Origin: Candidatus Nitrotoga sp. SPKER
GTDB taxonomy: Bacteria > Pseudomonadota > Gammaproteobacteria > Burkholderiales > Gallionellaceae
DNA: 64,000 nt
Direction of reading: 5' to 3'
NCBI GenBank assembly: GCA_003402285.1
Contig: QFXG01000024.1
Coordinates: forward strand, 124,001 to 188,000
Part shown: positions 5,618 to 29,824 of the stretch, piece after piece
How positions within the stretch are numbered: the first letter of the stretch is position 1
Layout of the letters: each line of letters starts with the position of its first letter
Notes under the pieces: model-generated
The model's input: only the letters and a program-made list of their open reading frames with translations
Databases searched by the model: none
What the model was told of the DNA's origin: nothing
Program-made: the position numbers and the translations under genes

Positions 5618-5634
5618 TGTCGAAAATTCTTACA
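5618..5634. promoter_or_regulatory. Candidate upstream activator element, copy 1
   Basis: TGTCGAAAATTCTTACA; similar element upstream of the other two sigma-54 sites. Confidence 0.4.
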
Positions 5635-5730: not shown

Positions 5731-5746
5731 TGGCATGTATTTTGCT
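5731..5746 (+). promoter_or_regulatory. Sigma-54 -24/-12 promoter
   Basis: TGGCATGTATTTTGCT vs TGGCAYGNNNNTTGCW, correct GG-GC spacing. Confidence 0.8.
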
Positions 5747-5850
5747 TAAGTTGTTAGGTGTGTTCTACCGTCTCCTTATTATTTACTTGTGCTAAAAATT
5801 AAGTTGAAGCAGTGCATGTAATGCAGGGTGCAACTTTAAAAGGATAATTA

Positions 5851-6612
5851 TTGATGACTATCAATTTGGATCAAAATGATGAGCTGGAAAAACAACAATT
5901 ATCTCAGGGTACGGATGATCAAATAAAATTTTCAGGTGAATCTCGCAGACGATTTGCGACGTCTGGTTTGGCTGTATCAGGGATAATTCTGACTCTTTCG
6001 AGTCGACCTGTATTGGGCGATACGTTTTGCATGTCACCATCTGGATTTATATCTGGTAACACCAGTCAGCATGGCGCTTGTCCTCCAGTGTCCACGGTTA
6101 CCACTAAACTGGTTACCAATCCGGACGAAACATTTTTAGCCGCATTTCCAAAGTCAAGTCAATCAAATACGTCATATAATGATAAACGCTTGTCAGATAT
6201 GCTGACAATTCCTTGGCCAGAGCCAAAACCTGCCACAGTAACCGCTCCAGTACAGGTAGAGAAGAATAAATTGGGAGCGGCGAGCTATATGACGACCTTT
6301 AGCGGTTCATCAGGCTCGAGTTCTTTGGGGCAAAAGGGCAAGGGGTCAAAGAATACTACAGTACCAACTTCAACTACCTCAACTTCTGTCATTGCACCTC
6401 CCAACCCTCCTTTTCAAACACAAGAATTATTACAGCATCTTGTAAAAGCATTACAAAATGCGAGAAGTGGCGCTACCCCTTATTTGACTGTAGGTACAAT
6501 TCAATCGATGTTCTATGAGTGGCAGGATCATGGCACTTTTTCTCCAACTGCCAATGTAAATTGGAATGCTTCGGAAATTATTTATTATTTAAAGCTAACT
6601 CAAAGTAATTGA
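5851..6612 (+). CDS. Hypothetical exported protein with Tat-like SRRRF motif; candidate substrate of the downstream HPr-rel-A cassette
   Basis: ESRRRFATSGLAVSGIILTLSSRPVLG; low-complexity Ser/Thr/Gly linker; immediately upstream of the PqqD-like gene. Confidence 0.7.
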   Translation: MMTINLDQNDELEKQQLSQGTDDQIKFSGESRRRFATSGLAVSGIILTLSSRPVLGDTFCMSPSGFISGNTSQHGACPPVSTVTTKLVTNPDETFLAAFPKSSQSNTSYNDKRLSDMLTIPWPEPKPATVTAPVQVEKNKLGAASYMTTFSGSSGSSSLGQKGKGSKNTTVPTSTTSTSVIAPPNPPFQTQELLQHLVKALQNARSGATPYLTVGTIQSMFYEWQDHGTFSPTANVNWNASEIIYYLKLTQSN

Positions 6613-6667
6613 ATTAGCTTCATATTGGATTTTCGCCTTATTTTCCTTTCACACATTGTGATTAAAC

Positions 6668-6946
6668 ATGAAATGGCAAGTAATTCCTGATCAGATAGTA
6701 AACTGTTGCTCATGGAATGATGAATTAGTGTTTTATAACAAACTTTCCGGAGATACGCATCTGCTTGGTTCAATGGCAACTCAAGTATTGCTGGAATTAC
6801 AGCAGTCGCCATTAGATATGCTATTGTTGACAGAAGCACTTGCTCCACGTTTACAAGCCAAAACGGTAACGTATGAGGAATTTTCATTCCAAACTGAACA
6901 CCTTCTCAATGAGCTTAATACGCTTGGATTGATAGAATGTAGCTGA
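6668..6946 (+). CDS. PqqD family protein, HPr-rel-A system
   Basis: 92 aa PqqD-like pattern (LVFYNKLSGDTHLLGSMATQVLLEL...), adjacent to the HprK-like gene. Confidence 0.8.
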   Translation: MKWQVIPDQIVNCCSWNDELVFYNKLSGDTHLLGSMATQVLLELQQSPLDMLLLTEALAPRLQAKTVTYEEFSFQTEHLLNELNTLGLIECS

Positions 6947-6947
6947 T

Positions 6948-7859
6948 TTGAATGTTTCTGCATTAACTCCATCAGAACTCAAACGCCGTCTTAGAAAGAC
7001 GGGGATCTTTCTGCAAACCGGTTCTTTTACCACGTACCTCAAAACTTCGATTTCCTGTGTGGTTGAGGGTATTGGTCTGCTTTACGCTGATTATCCCTTG
7101 GTCGAACAAGATGGTTTCGCAGATTTTCACATTACTCTGGTGCGCCCACGTAATCTGAGGCGATGGTTCAAGCCACAGGCGCTGTTTTTATTTGATGGAA
7201 ATACTATATTTAAACCTCTACCGCTCGATCAGGCATTTCCCATGTTGGAGTGGGGGCTTAATTGGTGCGTATCAAATCATGTTAACCACTGTTTAGTTAT
7301 TCATGCGGCGGTGGTTGAAAAAAATGGGTATGCTGTAATTATGCCCGCTCCTCCTGGTTCGGGTAAAAGCACTTTGTGTGCAGCTTTGATAAACCGTGGG
7401 TGGAGATTGCTGTCTGATGAGCTTGCTTTAGTTCGTGTTGGTGATGGGAAACTCATTCCACTCCCGCGCCCTGTTAGTTTAAAAAATGAATCTATCGAGA
7501 TCATCAGACATTATGAGCCAAAAGCGATTTTCAGCCGCAAGGTGGCAGATACGATTAAGGGTACGGTTGCTCATATGAAAGCACCGTCTGATAGTTTAGT
7601 TCGAGCTACAGAGGTCGTTCAGGTTGCGTGGATTATTTTTCCCAAGTATCAGGCTGGCGCTAAGGCGTGTTTGGAGGTATTGCCCCAATCCCGTGCTTTC
7701 ATGCGGGTTGCGGATAATTCGTTTAATTACAGTCTTCTGGGTCTTAGTGGCTTTAAAACCATGACGAATTTGATTGATGCGTCTCTGTGTTATGACTTTA
7801 AGTACAGTAAGTTGGATGATGCCATTGAAATGTTTGGTGCATTAAAGCCGAAAGTTTGA
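6948..7859 (+). CDS. HprK-related kinase A
   Basis: Walker A PAPPGSGKSTLCAALINRGWRLLSDELALV; TTG start 1 nt after PqqD stop. Confidence 0.85.
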   Translation: MNVSALTPSELKRRLRKTGIFLQTGSFTTYLKTSISCVVEGIGLLYADYPLVEQDGFADFHITLVRPRNLRRWFKPQALFLFDGNTIFKPLPLDQAFPMLEWGLNWCVSNHVNHCLVIHAAVVEKNGYAVIMPAPPGSGKSTLCAALINRGWRLLSDELALVRVGDGKLIPLPRPVSLKNESIEIIRHYEPKAIFSRKVADTIKGTVAHMKAPSDSLVRATEVVQVAWIIFPKYQAGAKACLEVLPQSRAFMRVADNSFNYSLLGLSGFKTMTNLIDASLCYDFKYSKLDDAIEMFGALKPKV

Positions 7860-8046
7860 GAAGGTAGTATCTGTATTTTAAATAGCAGTTATTTATGATC
7901 AAGTTATTCTTAGGCTTCCTTTATGTAAAGAGGCGAATCAAATTGTTAGAGTGGATGGATTTTTGTTTTTGCAAGAGCTTGAGAGTTTATTATTTATACT
8001 ATTGTACATAGAGCACATCAATTATTTTTGATAGGCATTATCAAAT

Positions 8047-9123
8047 GTGATCCAAAATTATCTAATATTGCAAGCTCTTCGAGAGCCAGAAGCATTAATT
8101 TCTTTGAGTTTACCTGATTGGGATTTACTCATACGCCAAGCACGCCGTGCCAATTTGTTGGCACGCATTTGCATTTTACTAGACGAACGTGGCTTACTTG
8201 AACGGGTGCCGTCAAAACCTCGCAAACATCTGAAATGGTCACGCGTAACCTCTGAAAAACAGATACAAGCTGTCCATTGGGAAATTACCCAAATTCGAAA
8301 TGCTTTGGCGAAAATAGGGATGCCAGTCATCCTCCTTAAGGGCGCTGCTTATGTAATGGCAAAATTGCCGTCCGCTAAGGGGAGATTATTTTCCGATATA
8401 GACATCATAGTACCTAAAGATAGTCTCAATGCTGTAGAGGCCGCTTTGATGCTTCATGGTTGGGCTGCGACGCATCACGATGCCTATGACCAGCGCTACT
8501 ATCGCACATGGATGCATGAACTACCTCCTATGCAGCATATTAAACGGATGACCGTCATCGACGTGCATCATGCGATTTTGCCGGAAACGGCCGCTCTTCA
8601 CCCTGATTCGGCAAAGCTTTTGGCTGCGGCGCAATTACTTGATGGTTACGACGATTTAAAGGTATTTGCACCGATCGACATGGTGCTCCATAGTGCAGTT
8701 CACCTATTTTATAATGATCAACTGGATCAAGGTCTGCGGGATTTGGTTGATATTGATAGCTTGTTACGTCATTTCAATAGTTTGCCAGCATTCTGGCCTA
8801 GCCTAGCTGTGCGAGCGCGGGAACTTGAATTAAGTCGCCCACTTTTTTACGCCTTGCGCTATGCTGTCCATTTTTTGAAGACTCCCATCCCTTTAGATAT
8901 GATAATAGCAGCACAAATTGGTCGCCCCAACTCATTAACCTTGATGTTGATAGATCAGCTTTTTGAACGTGCGCTCATGCCAGCCCACAAAAGCTGTTCT
9001 GATTGGTTAACTGGTGCAGCGCGGCAGATACTTTATGTACGTGCAACTTGGTTACGTATGCCCTCTCTTCTGCTTGTACGTCATTTGTTTCATAAGGCTT
9101 TCATTTCACCTAAGGTTGAATGA
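8047..9123 (+). CDS. Nucleotidyltransferase family protein (uncharacterised NTase type)
   Basis: VILLKGAAYVMAKLPSAKGRLFSDIDIIVP; co-directional with cassette. Confidence 0.8.
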   Translation: MIQNYLILQALREPEALISLSLPDWDLLIRQARRANLLARICILLDERGLLERVPSKPRKHLKWSRVTSEKQIQAVHWEITQIRNALAKIGMPVILLKGAAYVMAKLPSAKGRLFSDIDIIVPKDSLNAVEAALMLHGWAATHHDAYDQRYYRTWMHELPPMQHIKRMTVIDVHHAILPETAALHPDSAKLLAAAQLLDGYDDLKVFAPIDMVLHSAVHLFYNDQLDQGLRDLVDIDSLLRHFNSLPAFWPSLAVRARELELSRPLFYALRYAVHFLKTPIPLDMIIAAQIGRPNSLTLMLIDQLFERALMPAHKSCSDWLTGAARQILYVRATWLRMPSLLLVRHLFHKAFISPKVE

Positions 9124-9242: not shown

Positions 9243-10052
9243 ATGAGCGATGTGGAGACATCATTGATCAAGCTTCAGGATTTGTCTAATTTTTTAGAAA
9301 AAGGGAATCTCCATAACAATCTTGCACAGCTAGCTGAAATGACGGCAAAAATATTGAGCGCCATTAATTGCTCAATCATGCTGCTAAATGATAATAAATC
9401 CGATAATTTCCTTATGAGTGTGTGTGCTAGCTACGGCCCGCTACCGGCTGCAGCGTATAAAGAGTTGATAGGGAAGGGCGACGGGATCGCCGGCTATGTG
9501 ATTGCTACCGGACAATCATTGTTGATCGAAGATATTAATCGTTCTGAGTTCGCTAAGTTGGCTCGACGTGCAAATGAACCTGGTAAAAGTTTGATTTCTT
9601 CGCCTATCACTATTGGTGGGCACATTATAGGTGTAGTTAATATAAGTGGCCACATGCGCAATTGCGCATTCAATCTGGTTGACTTAAATCTTCTTAATGT
9701 GGTTGCTTTATTTATCGGTAAATCGATCCAGTCAATCCAATTGCAGAGCATTCTGAATTCGCGCTTTGCCCAACTGGCGCTAGCTCAAGAAGCCCAGAAT
9801 AATGTGGGTGCATCTTTAGATAGCGTTTTTCACAATCCTGATCAAGTAGCGAAAATATTTGCAAAATCTTTCTACAAAGAAATGGCTCGAGGAGGATTCA
9901 ATTCAAATCAAATTATTAGTGCAGCTTCGGAAATTATTAGCCAGTTGAGTGAGAATTTGCAACATCATAGTCAGCGTATGGAAAGGAATATGGCTAAATC
10001 ATCAGGTGATATACCGTCATCACAGAAAGCTGCTCCATCAGGTGAGCTTTAA
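9243..10052 (+). CDS. GAF domain-containing protein
   Basis: GDGIAGYVIATGQSLLIEDINRSEF.., SPITIGGHIIGVVNISG. Confidence 0.8.
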   Translation: MSDVETSLIKLQDLSNFLEKGNLHNNLAQLAEMTAKILSAINCSIMLLNDNKSDNFLMSVCASYGPLPAAAYKELIGKGDGIAGYVIATGQSLLIEDINRSEFAKLARRANEPGKSLISSPITIGGHIIGVVNISGHMRNCAFNLVDLNLLNVVALFIGKSIQSIQLQSILNSRFAQLALAQEAQNNVGASLDSVFHNPDQVAKIFAKSFYKEMARGGFNSNQIISAASEIISQLSENLQHHSQRMERNMAKSSGDIPSSQKAAPSGEL

Positions 10053-10074: not shown

Positions 10075-11733
10075 TCAGAAGCCGTATTTCATTTCTGCAA
10101 ATAACAATGAGTTATCTCGCAGTCTACCGAAGAACGTGTTACTGTCTCCTCGATAAATATCCACGCCAAGTGATCCTTTCACGTTGTCACTAAAGGCATA
10201 GACTAGTTTAGGCCTTATGAAATAATTGTTCTGTCCAAAAGAGCCGACAGCAGCGATCTCACCTTCCAGTGTTTCATTAAGCCATTTGTTGCTGACCCGG
10301 ATACTTACGCCATGCTGGGAACGGCTGAATTGATTCCATAGTGCAGCTGTTTGAATTGCGACTGGACGCAGAAGAGGGTCTGTTATCGCTTGTGGGTCGG
10401 AATAATTTGTAACATAACGAAGATAATATTGAATATTGATATTAAGGTAATCGAAAAAAGTTCTGTCACCGCCCATCACCATGTAAAGAAATGGTTTTTT
10501 TACAAGGAAGTCGTTTTCTCCGGTGTTTGCTGTCCAAGTATATGCAGCTTCAGCACGCAATCCATAACGTCCAATCACTGTTGCGCCGTCCATTCCTAAT
10601 ACACGGATGCGATTATGATTAAATATTAAATTTGTTCCGGACGGGATTGTCGCTCCAATCGCGATATCGGGAGTCAGATCTAACCCACTATAGTAAGAGG
10701 TTGACCAATCCACATTGCCCCCGCTGTGATCAAATTTGAGTGCAACCCGGTTGGTATGGGGGATATGTTGAGTAAAAAAAATGCCTGGTGTAGCAGCGAC
10801 AGGGAAAATATGGGGATCCATACCGGGGAGCCATATACCGGTCAGTGAGTTTTCGTGTGAGTGATAAGTTACTTTTGCTGCCAACGATCCTAATCTTTGA
10901 TCATCTTCCTCAGGTGTTAGCAGTGTGAAGTTTCGGGGCGTCAGATTATCGGTTGGATTCAAGCGATCTGCCCGTCCCCATGCTATGATCTGCCTGCCGA
11001 TCCGATAATCCATATTCCCAGCACTGAATTTTACGTATCCTTCTTGTAATTTTTTTGAATCCGCGTCTGCTCTGAAAGTTTGGTCGTTACGAACCCAACC
11101 TTGAGCAACCACGGAAATGTCTTCCCCGATATTTTGCGTAGCTTTAAGCCATATTGAGCCGGTACCCAAATCGTTTTTCCCATCCAGCTTGCGTGATGAA
11201 CTAAAGTATCCCGCTCGAATCGAACCATTTAGCTCCGGTTTCTGAAAAATATTTACGTCTATTTTTTCTGTTGGTGCTGAGAAACTCCCTGTCTGCGTTA
11301 ATAAAGTATTGTGCGCTGGTTTCAGTTCGAGGTTAAATTCGCGGATAACGAGACCATATGGGATACCACAGTGCGCTTTTAGCGGGAGCGTTAGCAAGCG
11401 CGCATTGATTGGAGTTGATGTGGAAATTTTGATTCGTTGGCCAGTGCCATTGTTTCCTTCCAACTCCAGGCTTGCAGCAGACAAATTTGACTCTTCTTGC
11501 TCAGGAATGATCCTTGACTTAACCAAAGAAAAGCAGTCGATAGTTATTTTTTCGTCGGGACTTGAAGGGGATATCTGAACATACGCGAGTAGTGGTTCTC
11601 CTTCCCTGCTGATAATTTCAATTTCACCTATGACCAATGCATGAGCTAACTGTGTGCTGAGCGATGCAAAGATAAGTGCCAATGATAAAACGCGTCTTAT
11701 GTAGCAGGAAATACTAATGCCTATTTGCAGCAT
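10075..11733 (-). CDS. Outer-membrane beta-barrel protein (DUF1302-like) with FimV-like N-terminal domain
   Basis: N-term ALVIGEIEIISREGEPLLAYVQI..; C-term barrel-type repeats (YRIGRQIIAWGRADRLNPTDNLTPRNFTLL) ending in F. Confidence 0.7.
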   Translation of the reverse strand: MLQIGISISCYIRRVLSLALIFASLSTQLAHALVIGEIEIISREGEPLLAYVQISPSSPDEKITIDCFSLVKSRIIPEQEESNLSAASLELEGNNGTGQRIKISTSTPINARLLTLPLKAHCGIPYGLVIREFNLELKPAHNTLLTQTGSFSAPTEKIDVNIFQKPELNGSIRAGYFSSSRKLDGKNDLGTGSIWLKATQNIGEDISVVAQGWVRNDQTFRADADSKKLQEGYVKFSAGNMDYRIGRQIIAWGRADRLNPTDNLTPRNFTLLTPEEDDQRLGSLAAKVTYHSHENSLTGIWLPGMDPHIFPVAATPGIFFTQHIPHTNRVALKFDHSGGNVDWSTSYYSGLDLTPDIAIGATIPSGTNLIFNHNRIRVLGMDGATVIGRYGLRAEAAYTWTANTGENDFLVKKPFLYMVMGGDRTFFDYLNINIQYYLRYVTNYSDPQAITDPLLRPVAIQTAALWNQFSRSQHGVSIRVSNKWLNETLEGEIAAVGSFGQNNYFIRPKLVYAFSDNVKGSLGVDIYRGDSNTFFGRLRDNSLLFAEMKYGF

Positions 11734-14700
11734 TATTCTTTTTCCATGTACCGTGTAGTAAAGAATTCATCCTTTACATGCTGGTTTGCCTTGAAGTTAT
11801 CAAATTTGATCACCGTGCGGTGGCCGGTCTGGACATTGCTTGCCTCAAGGCGCATTGCCTGCCATTTGCCACGCGTTTTGTCTACTAGTTGGATGTCGGT
11901 ATATGTTGAGTTTTTCAACAACTGCCCTGTTTCATCCCAAAAATCCATTTTTACGGTCATTAAATTATCCTTGCGTAGCCAGCCAATACGCTTCGAGTAG
12001 CCATTACTGGTTTTAATAGCGTCAGATTTTGGTAATGCTTCGATAACGTAACAGGGTTGTCCCTCTACCAGCTCTTCTTTCAGCAGCTTGTAATTCCATT
12101 CACCTACCTTATAACCAATTACGTCGGCATAAGAGAAATCCGTGCCTACAAAACTATCTTTTTTATTGTTGGAAACAAGTCGTCGCACTTTTTTTAGTGC
12201 AGGTAAATATATCCAAATGTCGTCATCTTTCTCGGCATGTTCGATTAGCAGCGATACCGTTCCTTTGACATCTGGTGGTGACAGGAACCGTGTCATACGC
12301 ATGTTATCGATGCCATTTTCCTCAAGTTTGGTCGTGCCGAAAGTTTTACGCACTCTTTCTTGTCCGGTCTTGTTGATGAGGGTAAACGTAGCATCAGCCA
12401 CCGAATCATAAACTTTGGAAACGACGAAATTCTTTTGCATGATCTGGGTTAGATCAGCTTCTGCTGCCCATGTATTTTGGGGCTGCATTGATAGGCCAAA
12501 AACAAGTGCCAATACGACGATAGACATGGGCAATGGATTATGTTTCACGGCAGTTCTCCTGAAAATAAAATCGGGACGGAATGTAAGAATAAGTGCGGGA
12601 ATAAGTAATAGCGCAGATAGCGAACTCATGATCATGGCCTCGGCAATCAGAATAGCCAGCCACTTGTGGATATTATACCCAAATGACAGTAACAGCACCC
12701 CGTAACCAGCTGATACCGAGATTGCAACAAATAGAATAGCTTGGCCAGCCGTTCCAATGACATTTCGGACGGCTGTCATTTCGTCGGTTCCCTTGGCAAG
12801 TTCTTCGCGTAATCGGTAGATTAGATAGATTGCATAATCCGCTCCTATTCCAACGGCCATCGCTGAGATCAGTGAAGTTGAAATATTTAGCGGGATTCCA
12901 CTCCATCCCATCAGACCGAAGTTAGCCAGAACAGCAACCAGAAGAGGAAGGAGAACGAGCATCCCTGCTATTAATGAACGGAAAATCAGGCTTGAAATAA
13001 TGAAAACGACAACAGTAATTTGCAGAATATTGAGTATTTTTCCGTAAACCATGACCTCATTGAGCGCAGCACCTTGAGGGACGCTGCCGCCGATCCCAAT
13101 ATGCACATTTTGATCGAAGTGCAGTGCGGTAAATACATGAATTTTTTCTACCAGTTTTTCTATATAGGCGCTGCTATCTGTCTTCAGAAATACCGTCAGA
13201 TTGGCGGCGCGGTAACCATAATCGACATAGGAATCAAAATCGCCTGGTTCGCCGGACATTGAGTAGAGCAGTAAGTATTGCGAAATCAATTCCTGACTGT
13301 CCGGAATTTTATAATAAGCTGGATCATCTCCATGCATAGCCTGATTCATACGCATGATAAAATCGGCTAACGAAACAGTCTTGCCGACATGGGGCTGACT
13401 TTCAAGAAAACGTTGCAACTCTCCTATGGCTTGGAGTGTTTGGGGATTCTTGATGGCATCGTCGTTTGCGCCTTCAACCAGTAAATACATCGTATTAGTA
13501 CCACCAAGGCGCCCATTTAGTGCTTTATCGTCTTTTTCGAAAATCAGTTCGGGAGAAAAAAAACTCTTGGTAGAGTTATCTACCGTGACCCTGCTTACAC
13601 CGATCAAGGTAATTATTACGAAAAGCAAAACACCCCCATACACTCTGCGCCGATTCTGGCCAGTCACCCAATTCGCTATCGCATTGGTCGTTTTGTCCCA
13701 AATACTCATTTTTTTTTCGCGTTTACGTTGAAGCGTATTTGGTGGGGCGAGTATTGAACGCAAAGCGGGGATAAAAGTCATTTCGAGAGTCAATGCCGCA
13801 AGGATCCCAATGCCGGTAAAAATTCCGAAAGTGCGCACTGTACTGATCTTAAATATCACCAAGGAAAAGAATCCCAATGAGGCAACCACTCCAGCGGCTA
13901 TCATGACCGGCCCAACATGGATAAGAGAGGAAATGACTGCTTGATTATTTGCAGCTTTAGGGGAAAGATCAGTTGTGTCACGTAAACGAAAATATTCTTC
14001 GTAATAGCGTTTGAGCAACTGTACAGCATGACCTGTTGCCACCGCTAAAATCAAAATGGGGGTCGCGGAGTTAAATACATCCATTGGAATGCCCGAAGCG
14101 CCCATCACACCTATACCCCAAGCGACAGCCAGACCTGCAGTAAGAAGTGGCAAGATGAGCCCTTGCTTTGTCCGAAAGGCTTCAAAAAGTACCAGGCTTA
14201 AAACCAAGATAGCAATTGGGAAGAGAAATCCAATACGCTCTGAGTAAATTTCAATGCGGGCAAGAAAACTTGGAATTCCCCCTATGTTGATTTCAACTCG
14301 AGAATCTCGCTCATGTTCAACGACAGCATCTACTTTATCCATGATTGCCCGGAACCCACCCGGCCCGTCTTTGAATTCCACGAGCAGGGCTGTCGTTTTT
14401 GCATCCGTCGAAACGATAGAATTTAAATAAACAGTGTTCTTCTCAATTGCGTCTTTTAGCTCAGAAATTTGTGCGGCTGTAGTGGGAACAGTCGACATTA
14501 ACGGCTTGACTTCCAAACCTTCTGCCATACCAGCAATATTCTTGGCTCGTTTTGAAGAAAGGCTCAGCAGATTTTCTTTAACTACGCCCGGTGTCTGAAG
14601 AAAAGCCGCTGTCATGCGCTGAACTTTTTCCAATACGACAGGCTGATAAATATCACCTTCTTTTGGAGTGATCCCTATCATCACAACATACTTCGACCCA

Positions 14701-14879
14701 AATACGTTTTCGACCTTGTTGCTCGTCGTCACATAGGGATGAGACTGGGGAAGCATGGTATTAGGATCGATAATGATATTCAGCTTTTTGGCCTGAATGA
14801 CCGCCGCAATTGTGATGAGTAATGTCAAGGTAATGACTACGAAGCGGTAGCGAATAATCCATTCTATGTAGCGTTGCAT
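11733..14879 (-). CDS. MMPL/RND-family transporter fused to outer membrane lipoprotein-sorting (LolA-like) domain
   Basis: Two RND/SSD halves (GIGADYAIYLIYRLREEL) followed by signal-like MSIVVLALVFGLSMQPQNTWAA and DDIWIYLPALKKVRRLVSNNKKDSFVGTDFSYAD; TAATG coupling to the next gene. Confidence 0.85.
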   Translation of the reverse strand: MQRYIEWIIRYRFVVITLTLLITIAAVIQAKKLNIIIDPNTMLPQSHPYVTTSNKVENVFGSKYVVMIGITPKEGDIYQPVVLEKVQRMTAAFLQTPGVVKENLLSLSSKRAKNIAGMAEGLEVKPLMSTVPTTAAQISELKDAIEKNTVYLNSIVSTDAKTTALLVEFKDGPGGFRAIMDKVDAVVEHERDSRVEINIGGIPSFLARIEIYSERIGFLFPIAILVLSLVLFEAFRTKQGLILPLLTAGLAVAWGIGVMGASGIPMDVFNSATPILILAVATGHAVQLLKRYYEEYFRLRDTTDLSPKAANNQAVISSLIHVGPVMIAAGVVASLGFFSLVIFKISTVRTFGIFTGIGILAALTLEMTFIPALRSILAPPNTLQRKREKKMSIWDKTTNAIANWVTGQNRRRVYGGVLLFVIITLIGVSRVTVDNSTKSFFSPELIFEKDDKALNGRLGGTNTMYLLVEGANDDAIKNPQTLQAIGELQRFLESQPHVGKTVSLADFIMRMNQAMHGDDPAYYKIPDSQELISQYLLLYSMSGEPGDFDSYVDYGYRAANLTVFLKTDSSAYIEKLVEKIHVFTALHFDQNVHIGIGGSVPQGAALNEVMVYGKILNILQITVVVFIISSLIFRSLIAGMLVLLPLLVAVLANFGLMGWSGIPLNISTSLISAMAVGIGADYAIYLIYRLREELAKGTDEMTAVRNVIGTAGQAILFVAISVSAGYGVLLLSFGYNIHKWLAILIAEAMIMSSLSALLLIPALILTFRPDFIFRRTAVKHNPLPMSIVVLALVFGLSMQPQNTWAAEADLTQIMQKNFVVSKVYDSVADATFTLINKTGQERVRKTFGTTKLEENGIDNMRMTRFLSPPDVKGTVSLLIEHAEKDDDIWIYLPALKKVRRLVSNNKKDSFVGTDFSYADVIGYKVGEWNYKLLKEELVEGQPCYVIEALPKSDAIKTSNGYSKRIGWLRKDNLMTVKMDFWDETGQLLKNSTYTDIQLVDKTRGKWQAMRLEASNVQTGHRTVIKFDNFKANQHVKDEFFTTRYMEKE

Positions 14880-16098: not shown

Positions 16099-16115
16099 TG
16101 TCGGGAAATTTTACA
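16099..16115. promoter_or_regulatory. Candidate upstream activator element, copy 2
   Basis: TGTCGGGAAATTTTACA. Confidence 0.4.
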
Positions 16116-16177: not shown

Positions 16178-16193
16178 TGGCACGAAATGTGCT
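16178..16193 (+). promoter_or_regulatory. Sigma-54 -24/-12 promoter of PEP-CTERM gene
   Basis: TGGCACGAAATGTGCT, correct spacing, about 83 bp upstream of start. Confidence 0.8.
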
Positions 16194-16275: not shown

Positions 16276-17076
16276 ATGAAATTTAATAAAATTGCAGCTA
16301 CGATGATTTTAGCATCGGTTGGATTGACCAGCCTTAATGCCCAAGCAATTACAGTTGATGGCATTACTTGGGATCCTAGTAGCTTTTTCGATTTTAGTTC
16401 TACTACCAATCTTTTTGAGGTTACAAGTGGAACAGCAGGGGCCGAGGTTAGTGGTTACGGCAAAATAACATCTGTTAATGCGGATGGAAACTTTGCTGCC
16501 GCAGGATATGAATTGACTTATCAATTTGGTGGTTTTATTTTAAACAACTCCGGTGTTCCAGGAGTAGCTGGTGATCCTTTCTTTGGTGCTGGCTCTGGTA
16601 TAAACGCACTGAATGGCACCTTTACATTCACTGGAGGTTGGCTCAAAGTATTTTCCGATGCATCAGCAGATTTTAATGCCCTTAATAAAAGTACTACCGG
16701 AGATGGCACACTTTGGCTTGACATGGTGGCGAATAGTACAGTTGCTGCACCTAACACTTTGACTGGTTCAATCACAGGATTCAGTAGTCTAGGCCTAACA
16801 GGTCAGGGTACTGGTTATTTTGATATTATCGGTGGCTCTGCTGGTGCTTATTTGAACTCCAATAGTCAACCAGGATTATCTGATTTTACATATACATCTT
16901 CGTTCCAACCTCTTAATGGCAATATTGTTAATGGTGGGGTTGTAGTGGCTAATGCTTTTGGAACAAATGAAATTTTTGGTAAGTCAGTTACTGTTCCTGA
17001 GCCGACCAGTATTGCTTTGCTGGGTTTGGGACTGTTAGGTTTAGGTTTCAGTCGTCGCGCTAAAAAAGCTGCATAA
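16276..17076 (+). CDS. PEP-CTERM sorting domain-containing protein (ORF track start 16240; ATG 16276 has an RBS and signal peptide)
   Basis: Signal peptide MKFNKIAATMILASVGLTSLNAQA; C-term VPEPTSIALLGLGLLGLGFSRRAKKAA; AAGGAG upstream. Confidence 0.93.
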   Translation: MKFNKIAATMILASVGLTSLNAQAITVDGITWDPSSFFDFSSTTNLFEVTSGTAGAEVSGYGKITSVNADGNFAAAGYELTYQFGGFILNNSGVPGVAGDPFFGAGSGINALNGTFTFTGGWLKVFSDASADFNALNKSTTGDGTLWLDMVANSTVAAPNTLTGSITGFSSLGLTGQGTGYFDIIGGSAGAYLNSNSQPGLSDFTYTSSFQPLNGNIVNGGVVVANAFGTNEIFGKSVTVPEPTSIALLGLGLLGLGFSRRAKKAA

Positions 17077-20478: not shown

Positions 20479-23283
20479 TTATAATTTTTTCAGCAAAGCT
20501 TTTGCTTCCTCAAGCTGTGGGAATATTTTTCCAGTGGCCAGAATCTGCTCCAGCTCCTTACGTGCCTTGGCTTTGTCTCCAGATTTAACCAATCCCTGCA
20601 CGAGATGATAACGAATATCTACTGCTTCAGGCGCTACGCTGACAGCTTTTTGCAGTAGAGGCAGGCCACGCGTTGCATTGCCTTGCTCTATCAGCATCCA
20701 ACCCAAGGTGTCTAGTATCGCAGGATTGTCGGGCGCAAGTTGGTTGGCTTTTTCGGCATACTCTAAAGCACGGGGGTCTTTTTCTTGTTGATAGAGCCAG
20801 GCAAGATTGTTTAGCGCCGGAATATTTTTTGAATTCTGCTTCAACACAGCTTGATATTGTTCGATAGCAGCTTTGTTTTGCTTGTTTGCGAGATAAATTC
20901 CTGCCTGATATAAGTGGGTAGGTATGTCGGTAGGGTGTTCTTGTAGCCATTGAGCCAAGCGATTGTCCGCTGTTTTGCCTTTACCAGCTTGTTTTAGAGA
21001 AGTATGCAATTTCACCATGAGTAGACCATTTTTATCCATAGAAAATGCCTGTTCATAGGCTTTCACCGCAAGATCAGGTTTTTTTTGCGCCATCAGCACA
21101 TCACCTTCTAAAACATAGCCTATGGGTGATTTCCCATTTTTTTTCTGAATTTGGTGGGCAATTGTGAGAGCTTGCTCATGATTTCCGTTGCTGGCTTCCA
21201 GAGAAGCCAGAGCCAATTGTGCTTCCAGATAATCTGGTTGTAATGAGAGTGCTTTCTTGAGAGCGTCTGATCCTGCCGATTGGTTTTGCATTGCCATGTG
21301 AACGACGGCAATAAGGAATTGGGCGGGGGCAGAATCTGGTTTTATGGCAGCAAGTCTGGTATAGGTTGCTAAAGCGGCTGATTTGTCGCCGTTGGCGAAT
21401 TGCGCTTGCCCCAGAATATCCAAAACTTCTGGGTTGCTGGAGTTGGAACCTTGAAGTTTTTGAGCGAGGGTGAGAGCCTTCTGTTTTTCACCTATGCGTA
21501 GATAATGAGCTCCAAGCAGGAGGGTTGGTTGCAATATGTCCGGATTGTCTTTGCTGGCGTTCTCCAGCCAGGTGGTAGCTTCCTTGATTTGTCCTTGAGA
21601 GAGCGCAAGATTGGCCAATGCGGTCATGATTTGAGAATTTTTCTTGTCTTTCTCGAGGACAGCCTCAAGGCGTTTTTTCGCTACTTCAGGCTTTTTGTCC
21701 TGTAGGTCAAGTTGTACAAGGCTCGTTACAGCAGGGAAATTGGTGGGTTGAAGGGAAAGAGTTTTTTCAAAGCTTGCACGTGCGGCAGTGCTATCTTTTT
21801 TGCCTAGGTAGGCAGCACCTTTGAGGTTGTGAGCTAAGGGGTTGTCAGGCTGCTCTTTCTCAAAGGCTTTTGCTGTTGCGAGAGCTTTATCGTATTCTTT
21901 AAGGCGAAGGTGAGTCATCACCAGCAAGATGTCTGCTTTGGGGGATTTTGTGTCTAATGCGGCCGCTGTTTCCATTTCCGCTACCGCACGATCATTCTCG
22001 CCTAACGCAAGCTTACTTAAGCCAAGAGCGGTGTGGAGTTCTGCTGCTTGTGGAGCAAGTGCGCTGGCCTTTGTAAAATATTCAGTTGCTTTTGCGTAGT
22101 CTCCAGCCTGCATATATGATTCGCCAGCGATGGCAAACAGTTGGGTATCATCTTGTTGTGCAACTTTAAGCGCTGGCGCTAATACATCAATTGCATTTTG
22201 TGTACGGCCACTTTTCAATAACGTGGACACCATCAATTTACGAGCGAAGAGATTATCTGGATTCTTCTCCAGATATTTTTTCAAGTGTTGCTCAGCTTGC
22301 GGCAGTGATCCAAGCGCGAATTGTACGGCTCCTGCCAGTAAAACACTCGGCATGTGCTCTGGGGCTACTTGGAGAACTTTTTGCAAAGATTCTAATGCGG
22401 CAGCATGTTTTCCTTGGCGAAAATCGAGCAGTGCTTGTGCATAGAAGATGGTTAGATTGTTAGGTGTTGTTTTACGTGCTGCGTCAATATCTGCTTTGGC
22501 TGCATCGAACTTTCCTACATCAAGCTCTAGGAACGCCTTGTTTAGATGAGCAGAGTTATTGTCCGGTTGTAATTTTAAAACTTGGTCATAGACGGCAAGA
22601 GCGGACTCGGTTTTTCCTTGGGCGCGCAGAAGATCACCTTTAAAGAGCAATACTTCGGTGTTTTGTGGATTTTGGGTTACAGCTTGTTCAGAGAAACGTG
22701 TTGCGGCATCAATGTTTTTCTCTTTAATCGAGAGTTTGGCTAGCCCAATGAGTGCGTCTGGAAAATCGGGCTTATCCTTTAAGGCTTGTTCAAACGATTC
22801 CTTTGCTTCTTGGCCTTTGTCTAGGGCCAAGTAGGCATTACCGCGCGCGACTGATATTTCAGCAGATTCTTTTTCGCCTGGGACCTGCTTTATTTCATCC
22901 AGAACGATTTGAAACTTCCCTTGCATGAGTAAGGCTTTACTCAAGTCAGGAAATACCTTGGTGGAACTCATGCCTAAACTCAATGCTTTACGGAGTTCTT
23001 TCTCGGCTGATGGGGAGTCTCCTGTTGTATTGTAAATGGTACCCAAAAGATAACGGGCTTCAACAATATCCGGATTCTTTTGTAATGCGTTTTTTAATTG
23101 AATAATGGCTGCTTTGTTATCACCCTTTTGTTGATATTGCTTGGCTTCAGTAATCAGTGTTTCAGAGGTTTCGGTTTTGCTGCAGGCAGTAACGCCACCT
23201 ATAAACAGGATCGTTCCAAAAATGATAATAACGGTGGTTTTTTTCCTGCTTATATTTGGCATAACTTCTTTCCTTTTAATCAT
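20479..23283 (-). CDS. prsT: PrsT: PEP-CTERM system TPR-repeat lipoprotein
   Basis: Lipoprotein-like N-terminus, about 930 aa of TPRs, adjacency to PrsK/PrsR. Confidence 0.88.
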   Translation of the reverse strand: MIKRKEVMPNISRKKTTVIIIFGTILFIGGVTACSKTETSETLITEAKQYQQKGDNKAAIIQLKNALQKNPDIVEARYLLGTIYNTTGDSPSAEKELRKALSLGMSSTKVFPDLSKALLMQGKFQIVLDEIKQVPGEKESAEISVARGNAYLALDKGQEAKESFEQALKDKPDFPDALIGLAKLSIKEKNIDAATRFSEQAVTQNPQNTEVLLFKGDLLRAQGKTESALAVYDQVLKLQPDNNSAHLNKAFLELDVGKFDAAKADIDAARKTTPNNLTIFYAQALLDFRQGKHAAALESLQKVLQVAPEHMPSVLLAGAVQFALGSLPQAEQHLKKYLEKNPDNLFARKLMVSTLLKSGRTQNAIDVLAPALKVAQQDDTQLFAIAGESYMQAGDYAKATEYFTKASALAPQAAELHTALGLSKLALGENDRAVAEMETAAALDTKSPKADILLVMTHLRLKEYDKALATAKAFEKEQPDNPLAHNLKGAAYLGKKDSTAARASFEKTLSLQPTNFPAVTSLVQLDLQDKKPEVAKKRLEAVLEKDKKNSQIMTALANLALSQGQIKEATTWLENASKDNPDILQPTLLLGAHYLRIGEKQKALTLAQKLQGSNSSNPEVLDILGQAQFANGDKSAALATYTRLAAIKPDSAPAQFLIAVVHMAMQNQSAGSDALKKALSLQPDYLEAQLALASLEASNGNHEQALTIAHQIQKKNGKSPIGYVLEGDVLMAQKKPDLAVKAYEQAFSMDKNGLLMVKLHTSLKQAGKGKTADNRLAQWLQEHPTDIPTHLYQAGIYLANKQNKAAIEQYQAVLKQNSKNIPALNNLAWLYQQEKDPRALEYAEKANQLAPDNPAILDTLGWMLIEQGNATRGLPLLQKAVSVAPEAVDIRYHLVQGLVKSGDKAKARKELEQILATGKIFPQLEEAKALLKKL

Positions 23284-26361: not shown

Positions 26362-28446
26362 ATGTTGACAAGCATTACTGCATATAGCTATGGAATAGCT
26401 GCTATAGCTTTTCTTATACTAACCCTTCTATTGTTGACCAGTTGGCGTGCCCGTATTTTCGGGACAGTGCTGACCGTTGCTTGCATGCTGACCACGTTTT
26501 GGGCTGCATCGATTACTTACCAGTCAGTCAGAGGAATTTCCTTACCGTTACTAACGGATATTTTGGAAACTCTACGAAATGTAGGGTGGTCTGTCTTCCT
26601 GCTAATGTTACTGGGGCCTTTCCAACAAACAAATTCCTTACCTCCTTTTAAATTTAAATTAAAACCCTATGTGGTTGGTATCGTAGTGTTTTATTGTTTA
26701 CTCTTACTTGTGAACATTTATACGTATTGGAAACTTGAACCTCCTCAAGGAGAGACAGGTTTTATGACGGACATCGTTGGACGTGTAGTAATTGCGGTTA
26801 TGGGCATGCTTTTGGTAGAGCAGCTTTACCGAAATACTCCCGCTAAAGGACGGTGGGGAATAAAGTTTGCCTGTTTGGGAATCGGAGGGATGTTCGCCTA
26901 TGATTTTTATTTATATAGCGATGCTATGTTGTTCAGGCAAATTAATATGGAAATTTGGACCGCCAGAGGAGCAGTCAATGCCCTGATTGTTCCTCTAGTT
27001 GCCGTGTCGGCAGCACGTAATCCTCGATGGTCATTGGGCATCTCAGTATCACGTCGTATTTTGTTTCATTCTGCAACACTGTTAGGCACAGCTCTGTATT
27101 TATTGGCTATGTCAGCCGCTGGCTATTACCTGCGTTTTGTCGGAGGGAGCTGGGGAGCTGTCATGCAAGTGACTTTTCTGTTCGGCGCTGTGGCATTGCT
27201 CGTTGGCATACTATTCTCGGGATTTTTTCGTTCATGGCTTAAGGTGTTCATCAGTAAGCATTTTTATAATTATAATTACGATTATCGTGAGGAATGGTTA
27301 GGCTTTACACGTACGCTTTCCGAGCACGGTCATGGACTGGGCGAGCGTACCATCCAAGCGATAGCCACACTCGTGGAAAGTCCAGGAGGTGTATTGTTTA
27401 TTAGCCGGGAATCAGGCAATTGCGAACCTGTGGCTCACTGGAATATAAGTTTGCCCACTGAATCTGAATCTGCAAGTAGTACTCTTTGTCAGTTTCTGGA
27501 AAACAAGCAGTGGATGATAGATCTACAGGAGTATGACGCAAACCCTGAAAAATATGGCGCAATTTTTATTCCTCAATGGCTACGAAATTTTCCTAAAGGT
27601 TGGCTAATAGTTCCGCTAATTCTGCTGGGAAAGTTGTTTGGTTTTATGATATTGACGCAGCCTAGAAGTAGGGTTAAGTTAAATTGGGAGGTAATTGATT
27701 TGCTCAAAATTGCTGGTAGTCAAGCTGCAAGTTATCTTGCCCAACAGGAATCGACCAATGCTCTCATGATTGCACGTCAATTTGAATCGTTCAATCGCAT
27801 GTCTACTTTTATAGTACATGATCTAAAAAATTTGGTTTCCCAGTTATCGCTATTACTTTCTAATACCGAAAAGCACAAGAATAATCCTGAATTTCAGAAA
27901 GATATGCTTGATACGCTAGATTATTCTGTTCAAAAAATGAAGCTGCTTCTAAATAAATTGAGTAGAAGTTCTTCCATTGAGCATTCTGCCCCGCTTTTTA
28001 TTGACAAATTATTACAGCAAACATTGGCGTTAAAATCTGTTTTTGAGCCTAAACCTGAGCTTGAGATACTCGACCATGAGCTGATGGTGGTGGCTAATTG
28101 GGATCGTCTTGAGAGAGTGATTGGTCACATTATTCAGAATGCGGTTGAAGCCACACCTAAGGATGGCAAAGTAACAATTCGTATTTCGAAGCAGGAGGCT
28201 TTTGTAGTCGTTGAAATCAAAGATACCGGCCAAGGTATGAGCGAAGAGTTCATTCGTGAGCGGCTATTCAAGCCTTTTGAGTCTACAAAATCGGCAGGTA
28301 TGGGAATTGGTATGTTTGAGAGTCGTGAATATATTCACGAACTGGGTGGGCAAATTGAAGTCTCTAGTCGTCAAACTATCGGCACAACTTTTCGAGTGAT
28401 TTTGCCATTTCATCGGCATGTTGATTATGTCCAGGACGCCGCGTAA
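26362..28446 (+). CDS. prsK: PrsK: PEP-CTERM system histidine kinase
   Basis: N-terminal multi-TM, GAF, FIVHDLKNLVSQLSLLLSN, HATPase; followed by PrsR. Confidence 0.92.
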   Translation: MLTSITAYSYGIAAIAFLILTLLLLTSWRARIFGTVLTVACMLTTFWAASITYQSVRGISLPLLTDILETLRNVGWSVFLLMLLGPFQQTNSLPPFKFKLKPYVVGIVVFYCLLLLVNIYTYWKLEPPQGETGFMTDIVGRVVIAVMGMLLVEQLYRNTPAKGRWGIKFACLGIGGMFAYDFYLYSDAMLFRQINMEIWTARGAVNALIVPLVAVSAARNPRWSLGISVSRRILFHSATLLGTALYLLAMSAAGYYLRFVGGSWGAVMQVTFLFGAVALLVGILFSGFFRSWLKVFISKHFYNYNYDYREEWLGFTRTLSEHGHGLGERTIQAIATLVESPGGVLFISRESGNCEPVAHWNISLPTESESASSTLCQFLENKQWMIDLQEYDANPEKYGAIFIPQWLRNFPKGWLIVPLILLGKLFGFMILTQPRSRVKLNWEVIDLLKIAGSQAASYLAQQESTNALMIARQFESFNRMSTFIVHDLKNLVSQLSLLLSNTEKHKNNPEFQKDMLDTLDYSVQKMKLLLNKLSRSSSIEHSAPLFIDKLLQQTLALKSVFEPKPELEILDHELMVVANWDRLERVIGHIIQNAVEATPKDGKVTIRISKQEAFVVVEIKDTGQGMSEEFIRERLFKPFESTKSAGMGIGMFESREYIHELGGQIEVSSRQTIGTTFRVILPFHRHVDYVQDAA

Positions 28447-29824
28447 CGGCAGGAAGAATGTCATGAATCAAGATAAAAAAAAGCTACTTGTTATTGAAGA
28501 TGATCTTGGACTGCAAAAACAATTGCGTTGGAATTTTGATGCTTATGACGTACTGTTGGCAGGAGATCGTGAAAGTGCGCTGGCGCAGGTTAGGCGGCAT
28601 GAGCCTGCAGTGGTCACCATGGATCTTGGACTCCCCCCCGATCCCGATGGTGCGTCGGAAGGATTGGCAATATTGCAACAGATTCTTGCGCTTGCCCCGG
28701 ATACCAAACTGATTGTGCTTTCAGGGAATCAGGATCATGCCAATGCGGTGAAAGCGATTGGTATGGGCGCTTATGATTTTCATCAAAAACCGTTTGATCC
28801 AGAGATACTCGGGTTGGTGGTTGAGCGTGCCTTTTACCTATACGCTCTGCAACAGGAGAATCGTCGAATTTTGCAGATTCAGGCGGACTCTCCCTTGTCT
28901 AGTATTATTAGCCGTGATCCTGGCATGTTAAAAGTGTGCCGTAGTATCGAGAAAGTAGCACCATCCTCTGCTTCGGTAATGTTGTTAGGTGATAGCGGAA
29001 CAGGCAAAGAGTTGTTGGCAAAAGCACTGCATCAGATGAGTCCACGGCAGGATAAGCGTTTCATGGCAATCAATTGCGCGGCAATCCCAGAAAACCTTCT
29101 GGAGAGTGAGTTGTTTGGGTACGAAAAGGGAGCGTTTACTGGAGCCGCTAAACAGACGTTAGGCAAAATTGAACTGGCTGATGGCGGCACTTTTTTCCTT
29201 GATGAAGTAGGGGATATGCCCATGCTTTTACAAGCGAAACTTCTCCGATTTTTACAAGAAAGAGTAATCGAAAGAGTAGGAGGACGTCAGGAGATTCCTG
29301 TTGATGTTCGGATTGTTTGCGCAACACATCGTAATCTAAAGGAATTGAGTGATGCAGGACGCTTCCGTGAAGATCTTTATTACCGTTTAAGCGAGATTGC
29401 AGTTATTATTCCTCCACTGCGGGAGCGAATAGGCGATGCCGCATTGTTGGCACATCATTTTAAAAACAAATTCAGCGTCAAAGAAGGACGTTCTTCACTG
29501 AATTTCAGTCAAGAAGCTCTGGCCATGATAGAAGGATACTCTTGGCCAGGTAATGTGCGCGAAATGGAAAATTGCATCAAGCGTGCTGTCATTATGGCTG
29601 AAGGCTCCCAAATAAGCACTGAGGATATTGGCCTGTTAACGTCACCTAAAATGATAGAGTCTATTAATTTGCGCCAGGTACGGGATGATGCTGAATATAA
29701 TGCCGTGGTCAAAGCGCTGGCGAGAGTAGATGGTAATATTGCCAAGGCGGCCGAATTGCTTGGTATCAGCCGCCCAACACTATACGATTTAATAAGCCGT
29801 CATGGTATTGTAAGCAAAGCTTAA
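28418..29824 (+). CDS. prsR: PrsR: PEP-CTERM-box sigma-54-dependent response regulator (real start near 28463)
   Basis: REC domain; GDSGTGKELLAKALH; GAFTGA; C-terminal Fis-type HTH. Confidence 0.94.
   Translation: MLIMSRTPRNGRKNVMNQDKKKLLVIEDDLGLQKQLRWNFDAYDVLLAGDRESALAQVRRHEPAVVTMDLGLPPDPDGASEGLAILQQILALAPDTKLIVLSGNQDHANAVKAIGMGAYDFHQKPFDPEILGLVVERAFYLYALQQENRRILQIQADSPLSSIISRDPGMLKVCRSIEKVAPSSASVMLLGDSGTGKELLAKALHQMSPRQDKRFMAINCAAIPENLLESELFGYEKGAFTGAAKQTLGKIELADGGTFFLDEVGDMPMLLQAKLLRFLQERVIERVGGRQEIPVDVRIVCATHRNLKELSDAGRFREDLYYRLSEIAVIIPPLRERIGDAALLAHHFKNKFSVKEGRSSLNFSQEALAMIEGYSWPGNVREMENCIKRAVIMAEGSQISTEDIGLLTSPKMIESINLRQVRDDAEYNAVVKALARVDGNIAKAAELLGISRPTLYDLISRHGIVSKA

Follow-up and report, generated by a model that had tools for sequence, protein, structure and literature searches.

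A stretch of 64,000 nucleotides (nt) from the nitrite-oxidising bacterium Candidatus Nitrotoga sp. SPKER (Gallionellaceae; genome 2.98 Mb; contig QFXG01000024.1, positions 124,001 to 188,000), here called the window, carries an HPr-rel-A-type cassette. Four open reading frames (ORFs) on one strand span 5854-9123 and encode an exported-looking protein, a PqqD-like protein, an HprK-related kinase A, and an NTP_transf_5 nucleotidyltransferase (NTase). The exported-looking upstream protein accompanies this cassette almost without exception, as its fourth component, and is quite probably the cassette's substrate. With a probability of about 0.62, the four genes form one PrsK/PrsR- and sigma-54-controlled system that modifies a matrix protein at one or more serines ahead of its export. 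The HPr-rel-A name (TIGR04352/TIGR04353 plus PF14907) covers the enzymes only, whereas the exported component found here has no NCBIfam or Pfam model. An earlier note on this DNA held that no function is assigned to the cassette, in agreement with a literature search that found no paper on HPr-rel-A, HprK-related kinase, TIGR04352/TIGR04353, or the GYWKNH motif; the enzymes carry a database name, and no published function was found. The enzyme types are already known, and their chemistry is known by analogy. To our knowledge, the new elements are a family of exported partners that share an invariant serine motif, the regulatory link to PrsR and sigma-54, and the relation to short twin-arginine peptides.

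Gene order and co-occurrence

The ORF check places all four genes where the earlier note had them, with a single nucleotide between the PqqD stop codon (TGA 6944-6946) and the kinase start codon (TTG 6948). The tight order described there holds for this pair but not for the NTase gene, which begins 187 nt past the kinase gene in the window; in most non-Nitrotoga loci, it abuts or overlaps the kinase gene. Similarly, the upstream ORF is present, but its product more likely has 252 residues than 253 because an AAGGA sequence lies about 8 nt 5' of ATG 5854, which makes this codon a better start than TTG 5851. The assignment to the HPr-rel-A type was upheld, as the PqqD-like protein and the kinase score above the TIGR04353 and TIGR04352 cut-offs, PF14907 is matched nearby, and the genes stand in the characteristic order. 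The closest relatives of the kinase come from Nitrotoga genomes (84-91% identity).

Co-occurrence was examined at 80 loci fetched by similarity to the window kinase, with members scored by profile search. The kinase and the NTase are present at all 80, PqqD at 78, and the upstream protein at 77, each time directly before PqqD; the order upstream protein, PqqD, kinase on a single strand is found in 75/80. Two of the three loci lacking the upstream protein are cut by contig ends (L015, L034). The third, from Nitrosospira SZUA-177 (L016), has lost both PqqD and the upstream gene, while its kinase and NTase genes remain adjacent and intact. Since these loci were selected by likeness to the window kinase, the test was repeated on 369 genomes spread evenly over the class, 40 of which carry the kinase above cut-off. 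The upstream protein occurs in 39 of these 40 genomes. A profile match adjoins the kinase in 34 (class search), one further case (G051) emerged in another profile search, and direct reading identified a twin-arginine-type ORF immediately 5' of PqqD in the remaining four (G194, G075, G151, and G363, corresponding to L184-L187). In the 40th genome (G319), the cassette is interrupted by a contig end, and the upstream gene lies on a separate small contig. Conversely, all 40 genomes with a match to the upstream family also encode an HprK-like kinase scoring at least 40 bits, a count that leaves out one spurious match and matches to the C-terminal domain only; genomes bearing that domain alone need not have such a kinase. 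The earlier note proposed the upstream product as the cassette's substrate and named a lack of conservation of the ORF in other genomes as a refuting result. The ORF proved conserved in both samples. Together with the invariant serines described below, this supports the proposal, in which the modification itself is still an inference.

A second copy of the upstream gene, in another Nitrotoga genome (L222:3827-4477; G009:C37), stands alone: it has an activator box and a sigma-54 site to itself, and no PqqD or kinase gene near. It is possibly a second substrate modified in trans.

The signal-plus-serine module and the enzymes

Relatives of the upstream protein, like the protein itself, match no Pfam or NCBIfam model. 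Conservation is concentrated at the N-terminus: among 62 homologues, mean pairwise identity is 52% in residues 30-71 and 30% elsewhere. The only invariant residues are S63 and S67 of a C-x3-S-x3-S motif (62/62), and S71 is retained in 56. C59 is kept in 61/62 homologues and belongs, with R31, R32, S63, and S67, to the best-conserved set; T47 and S50 in the signal region are also strongly conserved. The median distance from the arginine pair to S63 is 31 residues. Judged from the alignment, the invariant serines are in keeping with a serine kinase of the HprK-like type, and their motif is moderately favoured as the site of modification. The signal carries the RR motif (SRRRFATSGLAVSGIILTL), and the genome encodes TatC (225 bits), so export by the twin-arginine translocation (Tat) pathway is probable.

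Two other identities for the upstream protein were considered and dropped. A lipoprotein reading of the conserved cysteine finds a lipobox-like match in just 5/62 homologues, and a PEP-CTERM protein is not indicated by a C-terminal end (...NASEIIYYLKLTQSN) with no PEP motif, transmembrane helix, or basic tail.

The C-terminal part of the family varies. AlphaFold2 models the window protein confidently only for residues ~186-250, where the Nitrotoga version retains just the last helices of a domain that runs from PGYWKNH to AALLNA in relatives. A relative with this domain is modelled with a predicted local distance difference test score of at least 70 at 148/215 residues. The modelled fold suggested no function because it has no match in the PDB better than E = 8; the C-terminal domain has no sequence match either. 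The domain also exists apart from the cassette, in other surface proteins (L192-L195).

Both catalytic enzymes of the cassette look competent because their catalytic residues are invariant. In the kinase, H119, K140, T142, and D157 are conserved in all 88 distinct homologues, with G137-S-G-K-S-T142 as Walker A. In the NTase, the same holds for K98, G99, R113, D117, and D119 (D117-x-D119) in 89/89 homologues. The kinase aligns weakly to HprK/P crystal structures over the His-G, Walker A, and Asp region and is not a classical HprK/P (TIGR00679, 21 against a cut-off of 240 bits; PF07475, 19.4 against 33.3 bits). For the NTase, a sequence search gave no relative with a solved structure. Classical PqqD (PF05402) is matched neither by the window protein nor anywhere in the genome, and a role in pyrroloquinoline quinone synthesis was rejected on this ground; a defence system was rejected on the absence of a PADLOC match. 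The PqqD-like protein is presumed to be the recognition element for the N-terminus of the upstream protein.

Support for recognition of an N-terminal module by PqqD and the kinase comes from more distant sets. Short peptides of ~56-150 residues lie beside divergent HprK-like kinases that occur with PqqD and/or NTP_transf_5; these peptides begin SRRxF-(L/I/V)K...APxxLTL...A and mostly have Gly-Ser soon after the signal (L178, L179, L180, L182, L183, L208, L210, and L211; looser cases L201 and L203). Some of these genomes also encode orphan short peptides at other places (L177, L181, and L188). The more distant sets may form their own branch among systems of this kind. The SynChlorMet cassette also pairs a distant HprK-like kinase (ScmC) with a PqqD-like protein (ScmD); the matches are weak, and ScmC scores far under its cut-off (33.5 against 125 bits).

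The closest chemical analogy is found in lasso peptides, whose pathway uses a PqqD-like B1 protein to bind the leader. For paeninodin and pseudomycoidin, an HPr-kinase homologue places a phosphate on a serine, and a nucleotidyltransferase then attaches a hexose to that phosphate (reviewed in PMC8498205). The Nitrotoga cassette differs from this tailoring in its larger, exported candidate substrate and in its sigma-54 PEP-CTERM control.

Promoter elements and the PEP-CTERM regulon

An activator box at 5618-5634 and a sigma-54 site at 5731 precede the candidate substrate gene, which would place the cassette in the PrsR regulon; the earlier note did not mention this control link to PEP-CTERM/exopolysaccharide genes. 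Haft 2006 described a two-part element before proteobacterial PEP-CTERM genes, consisting of a 17-nt motif ending in TTTACA followed by a sigma-54 motif, whose distribution is paired with PrsR/PrsK/PrsT (PMC1569441). At distinct loci homologous to the cassette, the box occurs in 57/72 against 29/894 other genes (p ~8e-56) and the sigma-54 site in 36/72 against 46/931 (4.9%) control upstream regions (p ~1e-23); these p-values overstate independence because the genomes are related. Under a slightly relaxed definition, both elements are present in 58/72 loci. The spacers between them measure 61-107 nt. Lengths near 77 and 95 nt predominate, a few spacers are 84-86 nt long, and the steps between these lengths are close to one or two helical turns; the spacers are longer than the mean of 62.8 in Haft 2006 (PMC1569441). 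The box by itself is unspecific, since the 8 exact boxes in the Nitrotoga genome do not exceed the 10 of a reversed control pattern. However, five of the eight have a sigma-54 site 53-97 nt on; four of these precede genes with PEP-CTERM-type tails, and the fifth precedes the candidate substrate. PrsR is presumed to be the activator of the cassette, and it scores above cut-off in 39/40 cassette genomes against 67/329 others (p ~6e-23, with the same overstatement). The only cassette genome without a match is 75% complete.

The surroundings of the cassette are consistent with this assignment. Within 25 kb, the window encodes PrsT, the XrtA glycosyltransferase EpsB2, PrsK, PrsR, two exosortase-associated acyltransferases, and a PEP-CTERM protein, and XrtA/PEP-CTERM exopolysaccharide genes are recurrent neighbours in other genomes. 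The candidate substrate shares the two-part element with PEP-CTERM regulon members but, unlike them, has no PEP-CTERM tail. In Aquincola, a PEP-CTERM gene depends on RpoN and takes part in floc formation (PMC9850573).

Features of the cassette and its surroundings in the window
Feature	Position	Strand	Basis
Activator box TGTCGAAAATTCTTACA (TGTCG-N7-TTACA), presumed PrsR site, "motif 1"	5618..5634	+	Likeness to Haft 2006 (PMC1569441)
Sigma-54 -24/-12 promoter TGGCATGTATTTTGCTT	5731..5747	+	Exact TGGCA-N6-TTGC
Candidate substrate, exported protein, 252 residues (253 from TTG 5851)	5854..6612	+	No Pfam, NCBIfam, or PADLOC match
Twin-arginine-like signal S30-R-R-R-F ... TLSSRPVLG55	5941..6018	+	R31, R32 in 61/62; RRx[FL] in 60/62
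C59-M-S-P-S63-G-F-I-S67-G-N-T-S71, proposed modification site	6028..6066	+	Alignment of 62 homologues
C-terminal helical domain, residues 186-250	6409..6603	+	AlphaFold2; remnant of relatives' PGYWKNH...AALLNA domain
PqqD-like protein, 92 residues	6668..6946	+	TIGR04353, 52.8 bits (cut-off 35)
HprK-related kinase A, 303 residues	6948..7859	+	TIGR04352, 403.5 bits (cut-off 200)
NTP_transf_5 nucleotidyltransferase, 358 residues	8047..9123	+	PF14907, 193.7 bits (cut-off 31.2)
Same activator box before PEP-CTERM gene, comparison element	16099..16115	+	Sigma-54-like site at 16178
PepA-like PEP-CTERM protein (ORF also opens at GTG 16240)	16276..17076	+	NF033554, 54.6 bits, under cut-off 80; C-terminal VPEPTSIALLGLGLLGLGFSRR
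PrsT, XrtA/PEP-CTERM TPR protein	20479..23283	-	TIGR02917, 982.6 bits
PrsK, XrtA/PEP-CTERM histidine kinase	26362..28446	+	TIGR02916, 866.8 bits
PrsR, PEP-CTERM-box response regulator (sigma-54 activator)	28418..29824	+	TIGR02915, 742.5 bits

Three neighbouring genes merit separate mention. A GAF-domain protein is encoded at 9243-10052, just 3' of the cassette, and its homologues trail the cassette in 14/80 loci. On the minus strand, one ORF (10075-11733) combines a FimV N-terminal domain with weak likeness to DUF1302/Wzi-type outer-membrane proteins, and another (11733-14879) joins an MMPL-type transporter and a C-terminal LolA-like domain in a single polypeptide.

Proposed pathway and alternatives

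In the proposed pathway, PrsK/PrsR and sigma-54 would turn on 5854-9123 jointly with the PEP-CTERM genes. The upstream protein would be made with its twin-arginine-like N-terminus, which the cytoplasmic PqqD-like protein may bind and present to the HprK-like kinase. The kinase would phosphorylate at least one serine of C-x3-S-x3-S(-x3-S), that is, S63, S67, and perhaps S71. The NTP_transf_5 enzyme might then attach a nucleotidyl or sugar-phosphate group, with either the phosphoserine or the unmodified serine as its acceptor, or it might work in parallel with the kinase; a sequential NTase step is tentative, at somewhat under even odds. Tat exports folded proteins; therefore, a cytoplasmic modification would precede export. 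The modified protein would leave the cell, probably via Tat, and may have a role in the extracellular polymer or floc matrix.

Several observations weigh against this pathway. In a few distant cassettes (L184-L187), the upstream protein retains its signal, yet the complete serine motif cannot be recognised. The serines may instead be conserved because folding, cleavage, or polymer binding requires them. The kinase matches classical HprK/P weakly, and the PqqD-like sequences of the cassette are weakly conserved. Lasso kinases target a C-terminal serine, whereas the serines of the upstream protein are internal. The share of the NTase in the same pathway is made less firm by its distance from the kinase gene in the window and by its divergent orientation in some relatives.

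The enzymes could instead act on another target, such as a small peptide, a PEP-CTERM protein, or a polysaccharide precursor, with the upstream protein being a co-transcribed, exported exopolysaccharide-binding protein. The position of cassettes near XrtA/PEP-CTERM exopolysaccharide genes in many genomes would suit this arrangement, and NTases and kinases are generally common in sugar-precursor chemistry. Against it stands the Nitrosospira locus, which has lost PqqD and the upstream gene together but kept kinase and NTase. Furthermore, conservation in the upstream family centres on the signal-plus-serine module, whereas the C-terminal parts vary, and the more distant PqqD/HprK-like/NTase sets come with short twin-arginine peptides. 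A different target is considered unlikely.

Somewhat less likely still is a role in export control, in which reversible serine phosphorylation after the signal would time the release of the folded protein to Tat, with no further chemistry and a separate or regulatory NTase. The serines do follow shortly after the signal, and HprK/P enzymes are known as regulatory kinases/phosphorylases in other systems. However, the NTase is present in 80/80 loci with intact catalytic residues, which suggests a committed second step. A pathway for ribosomally synthesised and post-translationally modified peptides of the lasso type, in which the upstream protein is a precursor that is cut and cyclised by genes elsewhere, is highly improbable, even though lasso clusters too contain PqqD, an HprK-like kinase, and NTP_transf_5 (PMC8498205). 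Neither a B2 leader protease nor a cyclase (asparagine-synthetase-like C protein) is encoded in the 5.8-9.1 kb operon, by adjacent ORFs, or among recurrent neighbours, the rest of the genome not having been searched for them; for this reason, a lasso cluster identity was dropped. The product is also a protein of ~200 residues, with a C-terminal domain predicted to be folded in relatives.

Modification of the upstream protein by the cassette thus remains the preferred reading, and the locus points to an undescribed chemical tagging of a secreted matrix protein. More speculatively, and with considerable doubt, the NTase could extend the phosphoserine(s) of this PrsR/sigma-54-controlled protein into a phosphodiester-linked sugar or nucleotide, a handle coupling the protein to exopolysaccharide, while related sets would likewise modify short twin-arginine peptides in other bacteria. 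For a named enzyme cassette with no published function found, the partner that was missing is now supplied, together with a candidate site and a circuit of control, and the role of the cassette can thereby be put to direct test. Should the modification be real, it would represent a new route of protein tagging in the PEP-CTERM/exopolysaccharide system of floc formation (PMC9850573) in wastewater-type bacteria, and the kinase/nucleotidyltransferase chemistry of lasso peptides would extend to full-size exported proteins.

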